From Streptomyces venezuelae (GTDB lineage: Bacteria > Actinomycetota > Actinomycetes > Streptomycetales > Streptomycetaceae), in the NCBI RefSeq assembly GCF_008642355.1, contig NZ_CP029193.1:620001-684000 (forward strand): a stretch of DNA of 64,000 nucleotides, read 5' to 3'. Within the stretch, counting starts at the first letter, position 1; each line of letters begins with the position of its first letter. A program made the translations under genes and the position numbers. Shown piece after piece: positions 2,286 to 10,659 of this stretch. The notes beneath the pieces were generated by a model. The model was not told where the DNA came from, made no database searches, and saw only the letters and a list, made by a program, of their open reading frames with translations.

Positions 2286-3947
2286 TCAGCGCAGCAGGCC
2301 CGCGCGGCCCGACCGTGCCGTGGAGACGAGTTCGGCGATCGTGGCGATCTTGACGCGCGGGCGGCCCGCGCTCGCGCCCCGGGTCACCTCGGCGCGTTCG
2401 ATGGCTGCCAGGCCGCGCGCGTCGACCACGTGGCGGTTGCGGCGGCGCGCCAGCCGGTGGAAGGCCTTCGTCGGGTGGAGCGGGGCGGGCAGCGCGCCCG
2501 CGACCGCGTCGGCGAGAAGCGTGGCGACCGTTTCGGCGGCGCAGGTGCGGTTGGCGCCGATGCCACCGCTCGGGCCGCGTTTGATCCAGCCCACCACATA
2601 GGTGCCGGGCCGTCCCTCGACCCGGCCGCCCTCGTGGGGCACGGTGCCGCCGGTCTCGTCGAAGGGCAGTCCCGGGACGGGCGTGCCGCGGTAGCCGATG
2701 GCGCGCAGAAGGAGGCCCGCCGGGATCGACTCCTCCCCCGCGGCCGTCGTCACGCGCACCGCGTCGACCCGTTCCGTGCCGAGGACTTCGGCGGGTTCGC
2801 AGTGGAACCGCAGCACGATGCGACGGCCGGGTTCCGGCTGCCGCTCCCAGTCCGGGCGCGCGCGGGTGACGCCCCGCAGGACCGCTGCCTTGTCCTTCGT
2901 ACCCGCCGTGTCGATGGCGTCCGCGACGCGCGGGTCGTGGTCGTCGACGACCAGGTCCACGCCCGGCAGGTGCTTGAGGGCGAGGAGTTCGGACGTGGTG
3001 TACGCGGCGTCCCCGGGGCCGCGCCGGGCGAGCAGGACGACTTCGCGGACCTTGCTGCCGCGCAGGGCGCGCAGGGCGTGGTCGGCGATGTCGGTGCGGG
3101 CGAGTGTGTCGGGGTCGGCGAGCAGGATGCGGGCGACGTCCAGGGCCACGTTGCCGTTGCCGACGACGACGGCGCGCTCCGCCGACAGGTCGATGCCGTC
3201 CGGCTTCGCGTCCGGGTGGGCGTTGTACCAGGCGACGAACGCGGTCGCGGAGATGCTGCCGGGCAGTTCCTCGCCAGGGATCGACAGGCGTCGGTCGGCC
3301 GAGGCGCCCACGGCGTAGACGACCGCGTCGTGGTGGGCCGCGATCTCCTCCGGGGTGACGTCGGTGCCGACGTCGAGGCCGAGGTGCATCCGGACCCGCG
3401 GGTGCGTGTGGAAGCGGGCGAAGGTCTCGCCGACCTTCTTGGTCGCGGGGTGGTCGGGCGCGACGCCGTAGCGCACGAGTCCACCGGCGACGGGGAGCCG
3501 GTCGATGAGGGTGACCTCGGCGCTGGTGTGGAGCAGCAGATCCTGCACGGCGTACATTCCGGCGGGGCCCGTGCCGACGACGGCGACCTTCGGCGGCGCG
3601 AAGTCCGCGGGCAGGACGCGGGGGAAGGTCGGCTCGCCCCAGGCATGGAAGTTGGGTCCGTCCGGGTCGGGCTCGGGTGCGTCGTCCGCCGACGCGTCCT
3701 CGTAGTAGGCCGCGTTGATGGCGGCGTACTCCTTCTGCGCGAGCGGCAGGGTGTCCACCGGGAAGATCGCGTCGACGGGGCACGCGTCGGCGCAGGCGCC
3801 GCAGGAGATGCACGTCTTCGGGTCGATGTGCAGCATCTCCGTGCTGCCGAACGCCCGCTCCTGTGGCGTGGGGTGGATGCAGTTGACCGGGCACACGGCG
3901 ACGCAGGTGGCGTCGTTGCAGCAGGTCTGGGTGATGGCGTAGGTCAT
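2286..3947 (-). CDS. fprB: ferredoxin / ferredoxin-NADP reductase fusion (FprB-like)
   Basis: Soluble redox enzyme of 553 aa passing electrons between NADP(H) and Fe-S centres. Residues 1-60 form a 7Fe ferredoxin domain with cysteines near 9, 15, 19, 23 (CVAVCPVNC) and 46, 49, 52, 56 (CISCGACADACP). An adrenodoxin-reductase-like FAD domain begins with VAVVGTGPAGMYA (121-133); the NADP motif VVVGNGNVALDVA is near 260-272. ATG 3947 was chosen because the N-terminal MTYAITQTC begins the ferredoxin fold; the open frame further upstream is antisense to the next gene. It lies 38 bases downstream of the diiron oxygenase, in the same direction, so it is probably co-transcribed and may be that enzyme's reductase (inference). 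Confidence 0.93.
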   Translation of the reverse strand: MTYAITQTCCNDATCVAVCPVNCIHPTPQERAFGSTEMLHIDPKTCISCGACADACPVDAIFPVDTLPLAQKEYAAINAAYYEDASADDAPEPDPDGPNFHAWGEPTFPRVLPADFAPPKVAVVGTGPAGMYAVQDLLLHTSAEVTLIDRLPVAGGLVRYGVAPDHPATKKVGETFARFHTHPRVRMHLGLDVGTDVTPEEIAAHHDAVVYAVGASADRRLSIPGEELPGSISATAFVAWYNAHPDAKPDGIDLSAERAVVVGNGNVALDVARILLADPDTLARTDIADHALRALRGSKVREVVLLARRGPGDAAYTTSELLALKHLPGVDLVVDDHDPRVADAIDTAGTKDKAAVLRGVTRARPDWERQPEPGRRIVLRFHCEPAEVLGTERVDAVRVTTAAGEESIPAGLLLRAIGYRGTPVPGLPFDETGGTVPHEGGRVEGRPGTYVVGWIKRGPSGGIGANRTCAAETVATLLADAVAGALPAPLHPTKAFHRLARRRNRHVVDARGLAAIERAEVTRGASAGRPRVKIATIAELVSTARSGRAGLLR

Positions 3948-3985: not shown

Positions 3986-4900
3986 TCAGATGAGGTGGGC
4001 GCGCTTGTAGAAGACCAGGGCCGGCTTGGTGAGCAGGCCGCACGAGGCGAGGAACTCCATGAGGCCCGAACAGCTCGACCGCATCATGGACTTGTGGTGC
4101 TCGTTGGCCTTGGCCTCGGCGACCGCGCGCTCCTCGTCGAGTCCGGCGTTCGCGTACACCTTGCGGTTCACCATGCTGGTGACGATGACGTACGACGCGA
4201 TGGCGATGACGAGCGAGTTGATCTCGCGGCGCACCCGGCCGGCGCCCGCGAGCTGCTTGCGCGTCTGGTCGCGGGCGAACTTCATGTGCCGCGACTCCTC
4301 GACGACATGGATGTTGTTGATGGTGCGGACGAACGGCACGACACGCTCGTCCCGCATCCAGTCGCGCTGCATCACGTCGAGGACTTCCTCGGCGACGAGG
4401 ATCGCCGCGTACGCGGCCTCGCCGAAGGCGACGGACTTGAAGACCCTGCCGAGTTCGGTCGCCCAGCGGCGCGGCCGGTAGGCGGGGGCGCCGAGCTTCT
4501 CGGCGCCGCGGGCGAACATGATGGAGTGGCGGCACTCCTCGGCGATCTCGGTGAGCGCCCACTGCACCTCGGTGCTGGTCGGGTCCTTGGCGTAGACGTC
4601 GCGCAGCACCATCTGCTGCAGGATCATCTCGAACCAGATGCCCGTGCTGGCCACCGAGGCGGCCTCCTGCCGGGTCAGCTCCTTGCGCTGCTCCTCGGTC
4701 ATCTCCTGCCAGTAGGCGGTGCCGTAGAGCGTGCTCCACTCCGGGCTGGCGCCGTGGCAGTCGCGGTCGAGGGGGGTGTCCCAGTCGACTTCGACGGCCG
4801 GGTCGTACGCCAGCACCGCGGCCGAGTCCAACAGCCGCCGGGCGACATCGCCCTCCGGGGAACTGCCCTGTGTGCTCGGCCGAACACTGCTGCTTGCCAT
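3986..4900 (-). CDS. AurF-like diiron oxygenase
   Basis: 304 aa, the usual length of the p-aminobenzoate N-oxygenase (AurF, PF11583) family, cytosolic di-iron enzymes that oxidise amines or other small substrates. Candidate iron ligands are Glu91, the EECRH motif (122-125), the EEVLD region (171-172) and HVVEESRH (198-205), arranged as in the ferritin-like four-helix fold. ATG 4900 has a good Shine-Dalgarno (AAGGAG). It heads an apparent two-gene unit with the ferredoxin-reductase fusion, which fits its need for two electrons per turnover. The substrate is unknown. A 13-bp inverted repeat lies about 83 bases upstream. Confidence 0.88.
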   Translation of the reverse strand: MASSSVRPSTQGSSPEGDVARRLLDSAAVLAYDPAVEVDWDTPLDRDCHGASPEWSTLYGTAYWQEMTEEQRKELTRQEAASVASTGIWFEMILQQMVLRDVYAKDPTSTEVQWALTEIAEECRHSIMFARGAEKLGAPAYRPRRWATELGRVFKSVAFGEAAYAAILVAEEVLDVMQRDWMRDERVVPFVRTINNIHVVEESRHMKFARDQTRKQLAGAGRVRREINSLVIAIASYVIVTSMVNRKVYANAGLDEERAVAEAKANEHHKSMMRSSCSGLMEFLASCGLLTKPALVFYKRAHLI

Positions 4901-4983: not shown

Positions 4984-5020
4984 GACCCCCTTGTTAGACA
5001 GAACGTATAACAAGGGGGTC
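4984..5020. promoter_or_regulatory. 13-bp perfect inverted repeat upstream of the diiron oxygenase gene
   Basis: GACCCCCTTGTTA (4984-4996) and TAACAAGGGGGTC (5008-5020) are exact inverse complements separated by 11 bases. It lies between the end of the MFS gene (5087) and the start of the oxygenase (4900), both on the minus strand. The inner TTGTTA/TAACAA looks like a TetR-type operator; no T-run follows on the minus strand, so a terminator for the upstream operon is the weaker reading. Either role is inference. Confidence 0.55.
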
Positions 5021-5086: not shown

Positions 5087-6283
5087 TCAGCCGGTCGTGG
5101 CAGGCCAGCGGATCCGCGTGCTGCACGCCGAGACGACCAGCGCGGAGGCGGCGACGGCTGCCAGTCCCCACACCAGGCTGCTGGCGTGGGCGATGAAGCC
5201 GATGAGCGGCGGCCCGGCCAGCAGACCCGTCGTCCCCATCGCCGCCACCAGGGTCAGCGAGTCCGAGCCCTGTCCGGCCGCGGCCACGTAGACGCACGGC
5301 GTGACGGCCGCGATGCCGAGCCCGACACAGGCGAAGCCGAGCAGCGCGGGCACCAGACCCCCGCTCAGCAGGGCGAGTGCCAGACCGGCCCCGGCCAGCA
5401 CGCTCCCGGTCAGGACGACACGCCCGTCGCCCCAGCGGCTGCGCCACCCGTCGGCGAAGAGGCGGGCGACGACCATCATTCCGGAGACGACGGCGATGCC
5501 CAGGGGCGCCAGCTCCGCGGACGCCTCGGCGACGTCCTCCAGATAGAGCGCCGACCAGTCGTTCATGGCGCCCTCGGTGACGGTGCCGAAGGCCATGGCG
5601 ACGCACATCCACAGCGTCATCCTGGACGGCACCGTCCACTTGGACTTCTTCTTCCCGGCCGACGCGTCCGGCGCCGCGTCCGACTCCCCCGCCGCGCCGT
5701 CGACCGCCCGCTCCTCCGTCAGCAGACCCGTGCGGGCACACACCACCAGCAGGAGCAGGAACAGCGCGGCCGCCCCGAAGTGCGCGGCGACCGCCGAGGT
5801 CACCGCGTTCATGCCGGACGCCAGCAGCGCGGCGAGCAGTGAACCGCCGCTGAACGTCGCGTGCAGGCGGGCCATGGCGTTGCGCTCGTACCGCTTCTCC
5901 AGCTCGGCACCCTGCGCGTTCATGGCCACGTTGAGACAGCCCACGAGGACACCGTCGACGCACATGACGAGCAGCGCCACGGGATAGTTGGGCGCCCCGG
6001 CCAGCGCCAGGAGCAACAGCGCCAGACAGAGCGCCGACAGGAGCGCGAGGCGCTGCGAGCCGAGGCGGCGCATCAGGACGGCGACGAGCGGGAACGACAC
6101 GGCCGCGCCGATGCCCGCGGCCATCAGGAGCACGCCGACCTCGGCCGCCGACAGGCCGAGGTCCTCCTTGATGGCCGGAATGCGCGACGCCCAGGTCGCG
6201 TACTGGAAGCCGAGCGAGCAGAACAGTGCCGCGATCGCCAGCTGGCTCCGATGGAAAGGATCACGCACGCGGAGCACCCGCAT
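5087..6283 (-). CDS. MFS transporter, last gene of five-gene operon
   Basis: 398 aa polytopic membrane protein with about twelve hydrophobic segments and a longer polar loop near the middle (KKKSKWTVPSRMT, about residues 205-220). The N-terminal region GFQYATWASRIPAIKEDLG is typical of a small-molecule/sugar-like MFS subfamily. ATG 6283 lies 23 bases inside the preceding acetyltransferase gene, so translation is probably coupled. As the terminal gene of a biosynthetic-looking operon it most likely exports the product or confers self-protection (inference); import cannot be excluded. Confidence 0.88.
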   Translation of the reverse strand: MRVLRVRDPFHRSQLAIAALFCSLGFQYATWASRIPAIKEDLGLSAAEVGVLLMAAGIGAAVSFPLVAVLMRRLGSQRLALLSALCLALLLLALAGAPNYPVALLVMCVDGVLVGCLNVAMNAQGAELEKRYERNAMARLHATFSGGSLLAALLASGMNAVTSAVAAHFGAAALFLLLLVVCARTGLLTEERAVDGAAGESDAAPDASAGKKKSKWTVPSRMTLWMCVAMAFGTVTEGAMNDWSALYLEDVAEASAELAPLGIAVVSGMMVVARLFADGWRSRWGDGRVVLTGSVLAGAGLALALLSGGLVPALLGFACVGLGIAAVTPCVYVAAAGQGSDSLTLVAAMGTTGLLAGPPLIGFIAHASSLVWGLAAVAASALVVSACSTRIRWPATTG

Positions 6284-6842
6284 CAGCCCACTTCTCCGGT
6301 TCTTGCGCCGGTACGGTCACCGGTCGTGTGGTTCTCGTCGTCGAGGGACCCGTCGTTCTCGACATGTAGACGGCCGTCGGGCCGTAGCCGGCCGGGGGCG
6401 GGCCCGGGTGTGCGGCGAAGCCGCGGCCCGACCAGAACGTCTCGCTGCCGCCGACGGCGACGAGGGAGATCTGCTCGTACGCGTGCGCGCGGGCCGTCGC
6501 CATGAGGTGGCGCAGGAGGTGCCGGGCGAGCCCCCGATGCCGCAGGTGTTCCGCGACGACGATGTCGTGCAGGTGCAGGTTGCGCGACGCGGGCGACGGC
6601 CCGCGTTCGGGCCCGTTCAGCTCCGGGTACGCGGACTCCGGGTACGGCAGGGCGAGCAGATAGCCCGCGAGCTGCTCTCCGAGGTCCAGTGCGAAGCACG
6701 TCCCGGGTGACGCGTCGGCCCGGGACTCCAGCGCCTCCCGCCCCTCGGAGAGGCCGAGGGGCGCGTAGGCGCGGGACTCCAGTTCCACGATGCCGGGCCA
6801 GTCGGCGTCGGCGATGCGGCGGATGCGTACGGCCTCGGTCAT
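6261..6842 (-). CDS. GNAT family N-acetyltransferase
   Basis: 193 aa cytosolic acetyl-CoA-dependent acyltransferase. The acetyl-CoA pyrophosphate-binding motif is seen as HRGLARHLLRHL near residues 100-112 after the strand LHLHDIVVAEHL, and the C-terminal strand ISLVAVGGSETFWSGRGF is typical. ATG 6842 overlaps the stop of the decarboxylase gene as ATGA. The tail after residue 160 is Thr/Pro-rich and overlaps the MFS start. In context it may acylate an amine released by the decarboxylase (inference). Confidence 0.9.
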   Translation of the reverse strand: MTEAVRIRRIADADWPGIVELESRAYAPLGLSEGREALESRADASPGTCFALDLGEQLAGYLLALPYPESAYPELNGPERGPSPASRNLHLHDIVVAEHLRHRGLARHLLRHLMATARAHAYEQISLVAVGGSETFWSGRGFAAHPGPPPAGYGPTAVYMSRTTGPSTTRTTRPVTVPAQEPEKWADAGAPRA

Positions 6843-8035
6843 GCCGCCTCGCCGTCGATCCAGGTGTACGGGAGCGGGCTGAAGCCGTTGAAGCCCTGCG
6901 TCATGTAGCTGGTCGCGTACGCGCCGCAGGACATCACCCAGACCGGGTCGCCCGAGACGAGCGTCTTGGGCACCGGCACGAGGCCGTCCTCGTGCGAGTA
7001 GGCGTCGTCGCTGTCGCAGGTGGGCCCCGCGACCACGGCGGGGACGGACTCGGCGTCGCGGTGCGAGGGGAAGACGAGCCGGTACTGCAGCTGGTCCATC
7101 TCGTAGAGTCCGTTGAATTTGCCGCAGCTCAGGTACAGCCAGTACTGACGCTCGCCGTCCGGCCCGCGGCGCGCGGAGAGCCGGGAGACGTGGGCGCGGA
7201 TGGCGCCGTGGTCGGCGATGAGGTAGCGGCCCGGCTCGATGACGAAGCCCAGGTCGTGTCCGGGCAGCGCGCTCAGGCGGGCCATGCCCTCGCGGATGAC
7301 GGTGAAGATCTTGTCCATCGGCGGTTCGAGGGGCGTGCCGTGCTTGTCGCGGTAACCGAGCGCGGGCAGGCCGCCGCCGAGGTTGACGTGGTCGAGGGCG
7401 ATGCCGCGGCCCGCGAGCGCGGTCAGTACGTCGGCGATGCGGTCGAACGCGCCGTTCCAGGCGTCGGCGGTCATCTGCTGCGACCCGACGTGCACGGAGA
7501 GACCCGCGGGGGTGAGTCCCAGGTCGCGTGCCGTCCCCAGGATCGTGAGGGCGTCCTCGGGCGAGCAGCCGTACTTGTTGCTGAGTCCCCAGAGCGCGCC
7601 CTCGCCGGTGGTGGCGAGGCGGCAGAACACCCGGCTGCCCGGCGCGTGTTCGGCGACGGCCCGCACGTCCTCCAGGCTGTCGGTCGCGAAGTCCCTGATG
7701 CCGAGCCGGAACGCGTCGGCGATGTTGCGGTCGGACTTGACGGTGTTGCCGTAGTGCACGCGCCCGATGGGCACGCCCGCCCGCAGCGCCTGTTCCACCT
7801 CGATGGGGCTCGCCGCGTCGACGCCGGAGCCGTGCCGGGCGAGGAGGGCGAGGACCTCGTCGACGGGGCAGGCCTTCATGGCGAAGCGGACGGCGACTCC
7901 GGGGAGTTCGCGCAGCAGCGTGTCGTACCCCTCCTCGATGCCGAGGAGGTCGAAGACGATCTGGTCCTCGGCGGCGGCCGCGAGGGCCGCGCGGAGCGAG
8001 GCGCTGTCGGGCTCGTACGTCGTCGTGGCGTTCAC
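6839..8035 (-). CDS. fold-III PLP-dependent amino acid decarboxylase (ODC/DapDC-like)
   Basis: 398 aa alanine-racemase-fold decarboxylase. The Schiff-base lysine is Lys54 in VRFAMKACP; HVGSQ (182-186), the glycine loop NLGGGLPALG (218-227) and EPGRY (267-271) bind PLP phosphate. The catalytic cysteine from the partner subunit is Cys340 in GPTCDSDDAY, the signature of ornithine/lysine/diaminopimelate decarboxylases. The start is the GTG at 8035, sharing GTGA with the preceding stop; the longer upstream frame overlaps the neighbour and is rejected. It is not a standard lysA by context, since the neighbours are an oxygenase, a DUF6271 protein and an acetyltransferase. The exact substrate is unknown. 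Confidence 0.92.
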   Translation of the reverse strand: MNATTTYEPDSASLRAALAAAAEDQIVFDLLGIEEGYDTLLRELPGVAVRFAMKACPVDEVLALLARHGSGVDAASPIEVEQALRAGVPIGRVHYGNTVKSDRNIADAFRLGIRDFATDSLEDVRAVAEHAPGSRVFCRLATTGEGALWGLSNKYGCSPEDALTILGTARDLGLTPAGLSVHVGSQQMTADAWNGAFDRIADVLTALAGRGIALDHVNLGGGLPALGYRDKHGTPLEPPMDKIFTVIREGMARLSALPGHDLGFVIEPGRYLIADHGAIRAHVSRLSARRGPDGERQYWLYLSCGKFNGLYEMDQLQYRLVFPSHRDAESVPAVVAGPTCDSDDAYSHEDGLVPVPKTLVSGDPVWVMSCGAYATSYMTQGFNGFSPLPYTWIDGEAA

Positions 8036-9351
8036 GCGGAGCTTCCCGTCGCCGGGAGCGGGCCGGTGTCCTGGGCCGCGCGCATCAACGGCTGCCATGC
8101 CTCGGTCAGCAGGGCGAAGTCCTCGATGTCGCCGCGTGCCTCGTCGAGGAGGCGTTCGCGGTGTGCGGCCAGGTGGTCGGCGACATCGGCGTACCGGCCG
8201 CCGAGCGTGCGGTGGGCGGCGTCGAGACGGTCGAGGCGCCGGACGTTCTCCGCCTGGTCGAGTGCGGTGCTCTGCCGGGCGAACTCGGCGATGACGGAGG
8301 GGCGCACGTGGCCCTGCTCGTCGAGCAGGCCCTCGCCGGCCGCAGCCATGCGGTCGTAGATGTGGTTGAAGTAGAGCATCGACAGGAGGAACTTCGCGTA
8401 GCGGGTCTGGTACGCGAGGAAACCGGCGTCGGTCCTGCGTTCCCCGGTGTAGTAGTTGACGATGTTCCTGTTGTGCAGGACGCCGGGCAGGGCGGCGTCG
8501 TGGACCAGGTGGATGAGGAAGTAGTCACTGCCGATGGTGTCGGTCGCGGGCGGCAGCGGCACGCGCTCGTGCACGTCGTGGAAGCTGATGTTGCACATGT
8601 CGACGCGCATCGGGTCCACGAGGCCGAGGAGTGCGTGGTCGCGCTCGAACGGGTCGGTGCCCGCGCCCCGGAAGGACTCCTCGACCAGCGCCCGCTTCTC
8701 GGCGTCGGACCAGTGCTCGGGCGCCCAGAGGCTGACCACGTCGTAGTAGACGTCCGGGTCGATGCGCTGGATCTCGCCGATGTCGACGGAGAGTTCCCCG
8801 ACGAAGGAGCTGCCCACCATCGCCACGCGCCGGTCGGCGAGGCGCGGGTCGAGAGCGCTCTCCGAAACGCCGTGCGCGGCCTCCCGCGCGGGCTTGCCGA
8901 GCGACATCAGTTCGTGGTGCACCGGGAAGACGGGCTCGCCGTCGACGCTCTGGTAGCGGCTGTCGGAGTCCCTGCGGTGGACGGACTCGCAGCCGAGCGC
9001 ACGGGCGATCAGGAAGGCGCGGTTGGTGCAGGCTCCGTAGGAGAGGCGGTCCGGCAGCATCAGGTCGAGCATCAGCTCGGGCTTGGCGACCTGCGCCCGG
9101 TCGATCACGGCGCGCAGGAAGTCGCGCTGGGCCGCCTCGTCGAGGTGGTGCACGACGACGTGCGGCACGTCGGGCAGTGCGGCGACGGCCCGGGTGTGCT
9201 CGGCGAACGTGGCGGTGTCGGAGGAGTCCAGGATCAGCAGGTGCGCCTCGATGCCGAAGTGCGCGGCCGCGTACGCGGCTTCCGCACCGATCGCCGCGAT
9301 GGTCTCGGGGCAGGAGCGGTTGGTGGGGAGGGTCAGGCAGATGCGTCGCAT
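8032..9351 (-). CDS. DUF6271-like protein with glycosyltransferase-A features
   Basis: 439 aa, no signal peptide. I recognise the N-terminus (ICLTLPTNRSC) as that of DUF6271 proteins, a family without an assigned function. Visible features suggest a GT-A-like nucleotide-sugar fold: an initial beta strand ending in PTNR, LLILDSSD near 38-45, and a DxD-like DSD (128-130) in HRRDSDSRYQ. The C-terminal half (about 250-439) is mostly helical, with FLIHLVHDAALPGVLHNRN near the middle. ATG 9351 lies 19 bases inside the preceding oxygenase gene, and its stop overlaps the decarboxylase GTG. A role in assembling a conjugated small molecule is inference. Confidence 0.8.
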   Translation of the reverse strand: MRRICLTLPTNRSCPETIAAIGAEAAYAAAHFGIEAHLLILDSSDTATFAEHTRAVAALPDVPHVVVHHLDEAAQRDFLRAVIDRAQVAKPELMLDLMLPDRLSYGACTNRAFLIARALGCESVHRRDSDSRYQSVDGEPVFPVHHELMSLGKPAREAAHGVSESALDPRLADRRVAMVGSSFVGELSVDIGEIQRIDPDVYYDVVSLWAPEHWSDAEKRALVEESFRGAGTDPFERDHALLGLVDPMRVDMCNISFHDVHERVPLPPATDTIGSDYFLIHLVHDAALPGVLHNRNIVNYYTGERRTDAGFLAYQTRYAKFLLSMLYFNHIYDRMAAAGEGLLDEQGHVRPSVIAEFARQSTALDQAENVRRLDRLDAAHRTLGGRYADVADHLAAHRERLLDEARGDIEDFALLTEAWQPLMRAAQDTGPLPATGSSA

Positions 9352-10373
9352 GCGGCTTCCCCGTTCCAGGACTTGAGGCCAAGCAGCTTGGCGCCCAGGT
9401 CGTTGAGGGCGGCGGTGCCGTAGCGCAGCGATTCGTGCTTGTGGGCGTCGCCGAGCAGCGTGGCGTTCCACTCGGGGGTGCTCAGGTTGGACCAGGAGTC
9501 GATGCGGGAGCGGCGCAGCTCCTCGTGGGACTCCAGGGCGGGCATCATCGAGAGGTACTGGACCGCGCGGACGCCGTCCTTCGAGGTGTTGGGGGCGACG
9601 CCGTGGGCCAGCAGGCCGTTCCAGATGAGCAGGTCGCCGGCTTCCAGCTCGGGGCGGACGACGGGCATCTCGTCGCGGTCGATCGCGGGGCGGATGGGGT
9701 CGCGGTCGTCGGGCTGGAGGGCCTTCCACCGGTCGAACTGCCGGAACAGTTCGGGGCAGCACTGGAAGCCGCCGTGGTCCTCTTGGGTGTCGTCGAGGGC
9801 GATGATGCCCTGCACACGCTGGGGCAGCACGCCGAGGGTGGTGTCGACGTCCCAGTGAAGGTTGATGTCGAAGCCGCGCTCGGTGGGTGCGATCAGCGAG
9901 CGGGAGCGGTTCCTGATGTTGGGCGGGTTGAGGTTGAGGCGGTCCAGGGTGACCCAGAGCTCCTCGCAGTCCCATACGTCGACGAAGGCGTCGTAGACCC
10001 GCTGCGTCTGGCGGCTGTCCCAGATCAGCTGGTGGTGATAGGCCTCGACGAAGCCGTAGACGTGCAGCTCGCGGTCGAGGTCGGAGCGCCACTCGCGGTC
10101 CTCGTACCAGGTCTCGGGGCGGCCGCGGTCCAGGCCCTGGAACTCCCAGGCGAAGTCGAGGAGGTCCTTGGCGGCCTCGCGGGAGATCGCCTGCTTCACG
10201 ACTATGTAGCCGTACGTCTGCCAGTGCGCGAAGTCCTCCTCGGAGAGGACGCGCAGGGGCCGGGTCTTCTCGAGGTCGCGCAGCTGCGTCTGGGCCAGGT
10301 ACGTGTCGGCGTCCGAGCTGAAGTACGGGACATCGGAGGGGGCTCGATGGAGGTAGCGGTCACTCGCTGCCAT
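9333..10373 (-). CDS. phytanoyl-CoA dioxygenase (PhyH) family oxygenase, operon leader
   Basis: 346 aa Fe(II)/2-oxoglutarate-dependent oxygenase. The facial triad is visible: His173-x-Asp175 in NLHWDVD and the distal His257 in LLAHGVAPN, with Arg269 (GVRAVQYL) as the likely 2-oxoglutarate anchor. ATG 10373 is preceded by TTGGAGCACCAC, a clear Shine-Dalgarno; the longer frame upstream contains the promoter and is rejected. It is the first gene of the overlapping five-gene operon and probably hydroxylates or desaturates the pathway intermediate. Similar secreted-product clusters use PhyH enzymes on free or carrier-bound amino acids, but no carrier is present here. Confidence 0.9.
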   Translation of the reverse strand: MAASDRYLHRAPSDVPYFSSDADTYLAQTQLRDLEKTRPLRVLSEEDFAHWQTYGYIVVKQAISREAAKDLLDFAWEFQGLDRGRPETWYEDREWRSDLDRELHVYGFVEAYHHQLIWDSRQTQRVYDAFVDVWDCEELWVTLDRLNLNPPNIRNRSRSLIAPTERGFDINLHWDVDTTLGVLPQRVQGIIALDDTQEDHGGFQCCPELFRQFDRWKALQPDDRDPIRPAIDRDEMPVVRPELEAGDLLIWNGLLAHGVAPNTSKDGVRAVQYLSMMPALESHEELRRSRIDSWSNLSTPEWNATLLGDAHKHESLRYGTAALNDLGAKLLGLKSWNGEAACDASA

Positions 10374-10431: not shown

Positions 10432-10460
10432 AAATGGACTAGACCAACTCTCCGTGTCAA
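10432..10460 (-). promoter_or_regulatory. promoter with embedded GntR/DasR-like operator
   Basis: On the minus strand a perfect -35 (TTGACA, 10455-10460) precedes a weak -10 (CCATTT, 10432-10437) with a 17-base spacer. The spacer holds TTGGTCTAGTCCAT (10434-10447), whose 12-base core matches the DasR/HutC-type operator TGGTCTAGACCA at 11 of 12 positions. A repressor bound here would block RNA polymerase. The site is 60 bases upstream of the PhyH start, so it should govern the whole five-gene operon. Confidence 0.65.
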
Positions 10461-10577: not shown

Positions 10578-10591
10578 TTGGTCCGGACCAA
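10578..10591. promoter_or_regulatory. perfect 14-bp palindrome, second GntR-like site
   Basis: TTGGTCCGGACCAA is a perfect palindrome whose core differs from TGGTCTAGACCA at two central bases. It lies 131 bases upstream of the operon-proximal site, with the same outer sequence TTGGTC/GACCAA, suggesting cooperative or looping repression. It is also next to the FG-GAP gene terminator, so a chance or structural role remains possible. Confidence 0.4.
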
Positions 10592-10597
10592 AAGAAG

Positions 10598-10659
10598 GGA
10601 GGCGTCACCGCGCGCGGTGACGCCTCCTGAGACCCGGGGCGGGAACGTCCTGCCCCGGG
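10598..10659 (-). terminator. double-hairpin terminator of the FG-GAP gene
   Basis: Two stem-loops follow the stop at 10690 on the minus strand. CCCGGGGC/GCCCCGGG occupies 10633-10659, then GGAGGCGTCACC/GGTGACGCCTCC occupies 10598-10626. The second is followed on the minus strand by CTTCTTTTGG, a short T-rich tail. This gives a good intrinsic terminator separating the FG-GAP gene from the downstream operon. Confidence 0.75.

Follow-up and report, generated by a model that had tools for sequence, protein, structure and literature searches.

A conserved five-gene operon

The window analysed here is a stretch of 64,000 nucleotides from Streptomyces venezuelae (contig NZ_CP029193.1, positions 620,001 to 684,000; the host sequence is a complete genome of 8,018,484 bases), and coordinates below are positions in it unless another locus is named. 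The closest relatives of its proteins come from Streptomyces, in keeping with that genus. It carries five overlapping minus-strand genes, here called the cassette, which encode an oxygenase (PHY), a protein of the family DUF6271, a decarboxylase (DEC), an N-acetyltransferase (GNAT) and an MFS transporter, as follows:

9333 to 10373, minus strand: PHY, gene 1, a PhyH-type Fe(II)/2-oxoglutarate (2OG) oxygenase of 346 residues (PF05721, 49.9 bits)
8032 to 9351, minus strand: DUF6271, 439 residues, with a GT-A fold nearest to that of MtdL/UAM (GT75), a proposed sugar transferase (PF19787, 794.5 bits)
6839 to 8035, minus strand: DEC, a fold-III pyridoxal phosphate (PLP) decarboxylase of 398 residues with a GTG start (PF02784, 135.1 bits)
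6261 to 6842, minus strand: GNAT N-acetyltransferase, 193 residues (PF00583, 44.4 bits)
5087 to 6283, minus strand: MFS transporter, 398 residues, the proposed exporter, in conserved order (PF07690, 89.2 bits)

The four junctions from PHY through DUF6271, DEC and GNAT to MFS overlap by 19, 4, 4 and 23 bases, no terminator-like site was found within the five genes, and it is close to certain that they form one operon unit. A sequence-only reading of this DNA had given the same coordinates, overlaps and family names, the latter now each backed by Pfam, and had correctly stated that the five genes include no nonribosomal peptide synthetase (NRPS), polyketide synthase (PKS) or carrier-protein gene.

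Relatives of the cassette (cited by our locus labels, L035 and the like) were collected through DUF6271 from named genomes, as the best 80 of 138 candidates encoding a relative, with DUF6271 proteins 63–89% identical. The order PHY-DUF6271-DEC-GNAT-MFS on one strand recurs in 73 of the 80 loci, a count conditional on DUF6271, which was itself the search query. The seven exceptions are a locus with MFS inverted (L050), one whose contig ends before MFS (L069), one lacking MFS (L109), two in which GNAT was not detected (L091 and L106, with DEC broken in L091) and two with PHY-DUF6271 only (L105 and L111); L098 was scored as complete though several of its genes are split in two frames. The loci span Streptomyces, Actinacidiphila, Streptantibioticus and Actinokineospora; the sequence-only reading depended on the genes keeping company beyond close relatives, and the same five-gene order indeed reaches Actinokineospora.

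Among genomes sampled at three ranks, the DUF6271 family turned up in 90 of 295 from the genus, 57 of 197 from the order (three of six genera) and five of 396 from the phylum, all five of them Streptomyces. An independent search for DEC (E <= 1e-90) in the same 295-genome sample gave 65 genomes with the gene, and 63 of these carry DUF6271 as well (Fisher p 7e-40, with the genomes treated as independent, though related), and by coordinates DUF6271 adjoins 61 of 66 DEC genes. The shared order is more than chance. The overlaps themselves differ among genomes: of 73 loci, 59 offer a start that would make the DUF6271-DEC overlap 4 bases long, 36 do so for DEC-GNAT, 16 for PHY-DUF6271 and 15 for GNAT-MFS. 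An in-frame TGA within DUF6271 in some genomes proved, in the 12 loci examined, to be the normal stop, overrun due to the ATGA overlap with DEC.

DasR-type operators before PHY

Streptomyces use N-acetylglucosamine as a cue for switching antibiotics on and off. The core regulon of the regulator DasR, as described, covers the uptake of sugars, the breakdown of chitin and regulators of known antibiotics. Three features lie upstream of PHY:

10435 to 10446: DasR-type operator (dre), TGGACTAGACCA on the plus strand and TGGTCTAGTCCA on the minus strand, one mismatch, before PHY
10579 to 10590: second dre-like site, TGGTCCGGACCA, two mismatches, before PHY
10598 to 10627, minus strand: terminator-like hairpin with a 13-pair stem, after the upstream FG-GAP gene, parting that gene from the operon

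DasR sites of S. coelicolor follow the consensus A(G/C)TGGTCTAGACCA(G/C)T (PMC4398421). At up to two mismatches the window contains two dre-like sites, both before PHY, with 0.97 expected; terminator-like sites number one against 1.3 expected from shuffles, which is not above chance. Across loci, a dre of at most one mismatch precedes PHY in 49 of 75; among 1166 control regions, taken from upstream of the remaining genes of these loci and including some GH3 or das promoters of the cassette's own unit, 25 contain one. In a scan of 1.6 Mb, 72 one-mismatch sites (in 55 loci) fall between -500 and +60 of PHY. A further 30 lie elsewhere, and 16 of those head a das-type operon (uptake and hydrolase genes) in the eight loci where the cassette follows such an operon; in one of these, L101, the das genes are 72–81% identical to the host's own das locus. 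Within 6 kb upstream, a site of at most one mismatch is present in 68 of 77 relatives (L044, L096 and L114, with fewer than 400 bases of upstream sequence, were excluded) versus one of 73 downstream controls of the same length, so that the operator characteristic of the DasR regulon is found both at 10435–10446 and in most relatives. In the 8.02 Mb host genome TGGWCTAGWCCA occurs four times, once at this operon and once in the region surrounding the das locus, and its reversed control pattern occurs once.

A second line of evidence comes from S. coelicolor. The available part of PMC4398421 (Table 1) reports the SCO6032-33 region as DasR-bound at 24 h and 54 h, in four experiments in all, with a site, cttggtctagtccatt, at -154 and -278 and no gel shift listed, and TTGGTCTAGTCCATT of the window matches 15 of the 16 bases of this bound site. 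In S. violaceorubidus (L065) the called PHY start is 278 bases downstream of the same 15-mer, and a GH3 gene starts 137 bases from it; the 15-mer is found in 13 of 16 loci examined of the L065 group, with varying called distances in the others. The two regions have in common a flanking GH3 hexosaminidase, an identical 16-base site and similar distances, as far as that part of the source describes SCO6032-33. Since L065 has the 15-mer at about the S. coelicolor distances, SCO6033 is very probably PHY, as judged from site and spacing and not from sequence. The cassette thus resembles the core regulon in operator type and differs from it in that the consulted part of PMC4398421 names only SCO6032 and does not discuss SCO6033 onward; our literature search met SCO6032 only in that paper and found SCO6033-SCO6037 unmentioned. 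Taken together, DasR-type control of the operon is highly likely.

A GH3 protein is present in 53 of 80 loci and directly precedes PHY in 52 of 75. It is related to the beta-N-acetylglucosaminidase 6k5j (E 5.9e-76) and scores 184.6 bits against the NCBIfam beta-N-acetylhexosaminidase model, below the cut-off of 207; the host genome has four GH3 genes elsewhere, one of them within the das locus. Neither this neighbour nor the operators figured in the sequence-only reading.

Activities of the encoded proteins

PHY belongs to the PhyH Fe(II)/2OG oxygenases: its PF05721 score exceeds the cut-off of 22, and H173, D175 and H257 (HxD...H), together with R269, are invariant in 33 sequences. The ATG at 10373 fits as its start because the homologues are 346 residues long, though the frame is open further upstream. 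Searching the PDB with PHY sequences returned no relative, and its predicted structure is unreliable (pLDDT 44, the 33 input sequences being too alike).

DUF6271 adopts a sugar-nucleotide-type GT-A fold with the GT75 core and helix domains. The metal-binding DxD motif, D128-S129-D130, is present in 57 of 57 sequences, and the DxD, His and Asp of the structural relatives are kept, by a residue mapping inferred from spacing. GT75 enzymes carry a self-glycosylated arginine, Arg159 in MtdL (PMC9937993). In the alignment of the family, none of the DUF6271 arginines between 131 and 304 is nearly invariant, the correspondence with MtdL being judged from spacing. No match to PF03214 (GT75) was found, PF19787 being the sole Pfam match at E <= 0.001; PDB searches gave nothing with the single sequence and only chance matches with a profile, and a profile comparison (hhalign) with two bacterial RGP proteins gave nothing. 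DUF6271 differs from GT75 (MtdL, plant UAM/RGP) in sequence, in its apparent lack of a conserved arginine nucleophile and in its setting beside an oxygenase and a decarboxylase; it looks like a new branch near GT75, and it is likely to use a nucleotide sugar. The sequence-only reading had considered it a possible conjugating transferase, with which the GT-A fold is compatible; given that fold, any conjugation would probably attach a sugar. MtdL belongs to the A201A pathway, and other clusters without NRPS or PKS likewise exist; the A201A system resembles the cassette in placing a GT-A mutase-like enzyme in a small-molecule cluster, and differs in the partner enzymes.

More distant DUF6271 proteins occur in other settings. 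L125 and L126 carry divergent members, about 25% identical, within low-GC3 clusters that encode a DegT aminotransferase and kinase/phosphatase-like, GT2-like and asparagine-synthetase-like proteins (the last two functions judged by eye). An Apilactobacillus kunkeei plasmid (L147, 5198 to 15596) encodes a relative (96.6 bits) in what looks like a biosynthetic cluster, alongside a carrier protein, a ligase-like protein, two ATP-grasp proteins, an aminotransferase and a split transketolase; a literature search for a published Apilactobacillus cluster of this type returned no match.

The best PDB relative of DEC is the lysine/ornithine decarboxylase 2plj (E 3.4e-38). DEC shares with the fold-III lysine/ornithine decarboxylases (2plj, 5gjm) the PLP lysine, active-site Cys-Asp and Tyr (K54, D341 and Y373 in 79 of 79 sequences, C340 in 78), and departs from them in the specificity loop. 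In ornithine decarboxylase Asp332 sits in a DDGxYGSF loop, which reads the side-chain amine; DEC has instead, in nearly all 79 sequences, S-x-G-K-F-N-G-L-Y-E-x-D, three residues shorter. DEC scores 128.4 bits against TIGR01048 (lysA), below the cut-off of 297.9, and two other host genes pass it with 478.0 and 417.8 bits, which rules out DEC as the cell's only lysA, an outcome on which the sequence-only reading would have foundered. Of the substrate classes which that reading named, basic amino acids and diaminopimelate, DEC is by sequence nearest to enzymes of the former, the lysine and ornithine decarboxylases, and not to diaminopimelate decarboxylase, and it has a specificity loop of its own. 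An amine-forming role fits the conserved residues, and GNAT pairs with DEC outside the cassette as well.

Modules, product and rival readings

We propose that the cassette is an operon controlled by DasR, and hence by N-acetylglucosamine, for the synthesis and export of a small N-acetylated amine, a reading whose chances we regard as evenly balanced. Amino sugars from chitin would free the operon of DasR and so induce it; PHY would hydroxylate an amino-acid-type substrate, DUF6271 would transfer the sugar of a nucleotide sugar onto an acceptor, DEC would convert an amino acid to an amine, GNAT would acetylate it and MFS would export the product, while GH3, where it adjoins, may trim or recycle the sugar part. 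Transfer to an acceptor is suggested for DUF6271 because DxD, His and Asp are present but apparently no conserved arginine to hold the sugar; the order of steps and the identity of the sugar are guesses. An N-acetylated amine that is exported and probably carries a sugar is the most likely product. For the acetylated amine as such the balance tips modestly in favour, and that all modifications, sugar included, meet in one molecule is at best an even prospect.

Several observations weigh against this reading. The strongest, directed at a single chain of steps, is that each module also occurs alone, DEC-GNAT being found without PHY-DUF6271 and without dre sites in five genomes (L172-L176). The operator sites of the window are not significant by themselves (at least two sites arise in 30 of 100 shuffles), so the argument for DasR-type control lies in the comparison of loci, where nine of 77 (L051, L056, L061, L072, L080, L097, L100, L103 and L109) have no site of at most one mismatch. 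No GH3 gene adjoins the cassette in the window or its nearest relatives (L035, L037, L098), and DUF6271 could not be linked to GT75 by sequence.

PHY-DUF6271 occurs in a sister cassette (L105, L111, L141, L142 and, from S. clavuligerus, L143), likewise preceded by paired dre sites, in which a condensation-domain protein and another MFS transporter follow, and a relative of amino acid-[acyl-carrier-protein] ligases, a short carrier-like protein and a phosphopantetheinyl transferase (PPTase) lie upstream. In L142 (7204 to 10284, minus strand) DUF6271 and the condensation domain are fused in one natural frame of 1025 residues. The ligase is related to the PDB ligases 3mey and 4h2w (E 3e-23) and scores 105.6 bits, below the NCBIfam cut-off of 357; the short protein has no Pfam match and is called carrier-like by eye. 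The ligase, carrier-like protein and PPTase liken the sister version to amino acid-[acyl-carrier-protein] ligase systems, from which the five-gene cassette differs in having no ligase; the host genome contains no match to the sister-cassette ligase.

Two further loci combine these parts differently. L109 (2908 to 13272) is a hybrid in which an amino acid-carrier protein ligase and a carrier-like protein accompany PHY-DUF6271-DEC-GNAT, with two ABC exporters where MFS would be. A S. clavuligerus plasmid (L146, 10937 to 13332) carries a second PHY-DUF6271 pair in that species, with DEC not directly after, an N-acetyltransferase and an MBL-fold gene nearby, and no dre-like site just upstream.

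In L172-L176, DEC-GNAT adjoins a glutamine-synthetase-like gene (PF00120), whose best NCBIfam match is gamma-glutamylputrescine synthetase at 269.8 bits, below the cut-off of 650; the DEC loop is unchanged in all five proteins, and the set is possibly a polyamine-type pathway. Because DEC-GNAT also stands alone here, DEC need not act on products of PHY or DUF6271, and the single serial chain of oxidation, decarboxylation, acylation and conjugation envisaged by the sequence-only reading is not supported. Its conserved operon and probable small amine product stand; the sister version with carrier and condensation-domain proteins had escaped it.

These separate occurrences lend themselves to a reading in which two modules share one promoter, PHY-DUF6271 modifying one molecule, as beside the ligase, carrier and condensation proteins and second MFS of the sister cassette, and DEC-GNAT turning an ordinary amino acid into an acetylated amine as partner or second product. 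The reading is unlikely, as DUF6271 adjoins nearly all DEC genes (61 of 66) and 73 of 80 loci keep both modules side by side with MFS. That DUF6271 is instead a GT75-kind nucleotide-sugar mutase, making a furanose donor for use elsewhere, is distinctly improbable: MtdL Arg159 appears to have no conserved counterpart between 131 and 304 (as mapped by spacing), PF19787 and not PF03214 is matched, and the cassette has no other glycosyltransferase.

The GH3 gene so often placed before PHY, related to beta-N-acetylglucosaminidases, and the DasR-type control would also suit an amino-sugar inhibitor or mimic, for example an iminosugar acting on hexosaminidases, with GH3 as target or resistance enzyme. 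Against this very unlikely product, the conserved set has no aminotransferase, dehydrogenase or cyclase of the kind known for iminosugars, the window has no GH3, and GH3 may be a mere fellow member of the chitin regulon. A literature search on allosamidin returned no match. Breakdown or detoxification of an amino acid or glycoside set free from chitin-rich material, by oxidation, decarboxylation and acetylation followed by expulsion, could draw on the das uptake and hydrolase genes adjoining in eight loci and on DEC-GNAT beside a gamma-glutamylamine-type synthetase; a GT-A protein and a carrier-protein sister version indicate building, and the last operon gene encodes an MFS transporter and no catabolic enzyme, so we hold it least probable of all.

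A bolder form of the favoured, DasR-controlled acetyl-amine reading is tentative and rather doubtful: DUF6271 would be a new glycosyltransferase family, GT75-like with its own arginine acceptor lost, placing sugar on a free PHY-hydroxylated amino acid, and in about a quarter of Streptomyces species the cassette would, through DasR, tie chitin breakdown to the making and export of a new class of glycosylated acetyl-amine that needs neither NRPS nor PKS.

The enzymes come from known superfamilies; their combination and control are undescribed as far as our searches reach. A literature search found no study of DUF6271, and a narrow one for the combined gene set found none. A conserved synthesis-and-export operon within the DasR regulon would, if true, represent an overlooked chitin-induced metabolite, carried, if SCO6033 is indeed PHY, by the model strain S. 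coelicolor, and it gives PF19787, a Pfam family of unknown function, and an unusual decarboxylase a testable role.

Two further minus-strand genes lie 3' of MFS, encoding an AurF-type diiron N-oxygenase (3986 to 4900; PF11583, 337 bits) and a ferredoxin/NADP reductase-like protein (about 2733 to 3947). The pair recurs 3' of MFS in the close relatives L035, L036 and L037; in L098 only AurF is present. Before the AurF gene, a palindrome at about 4987 to 5018 suggests that AurF has its own regulator.
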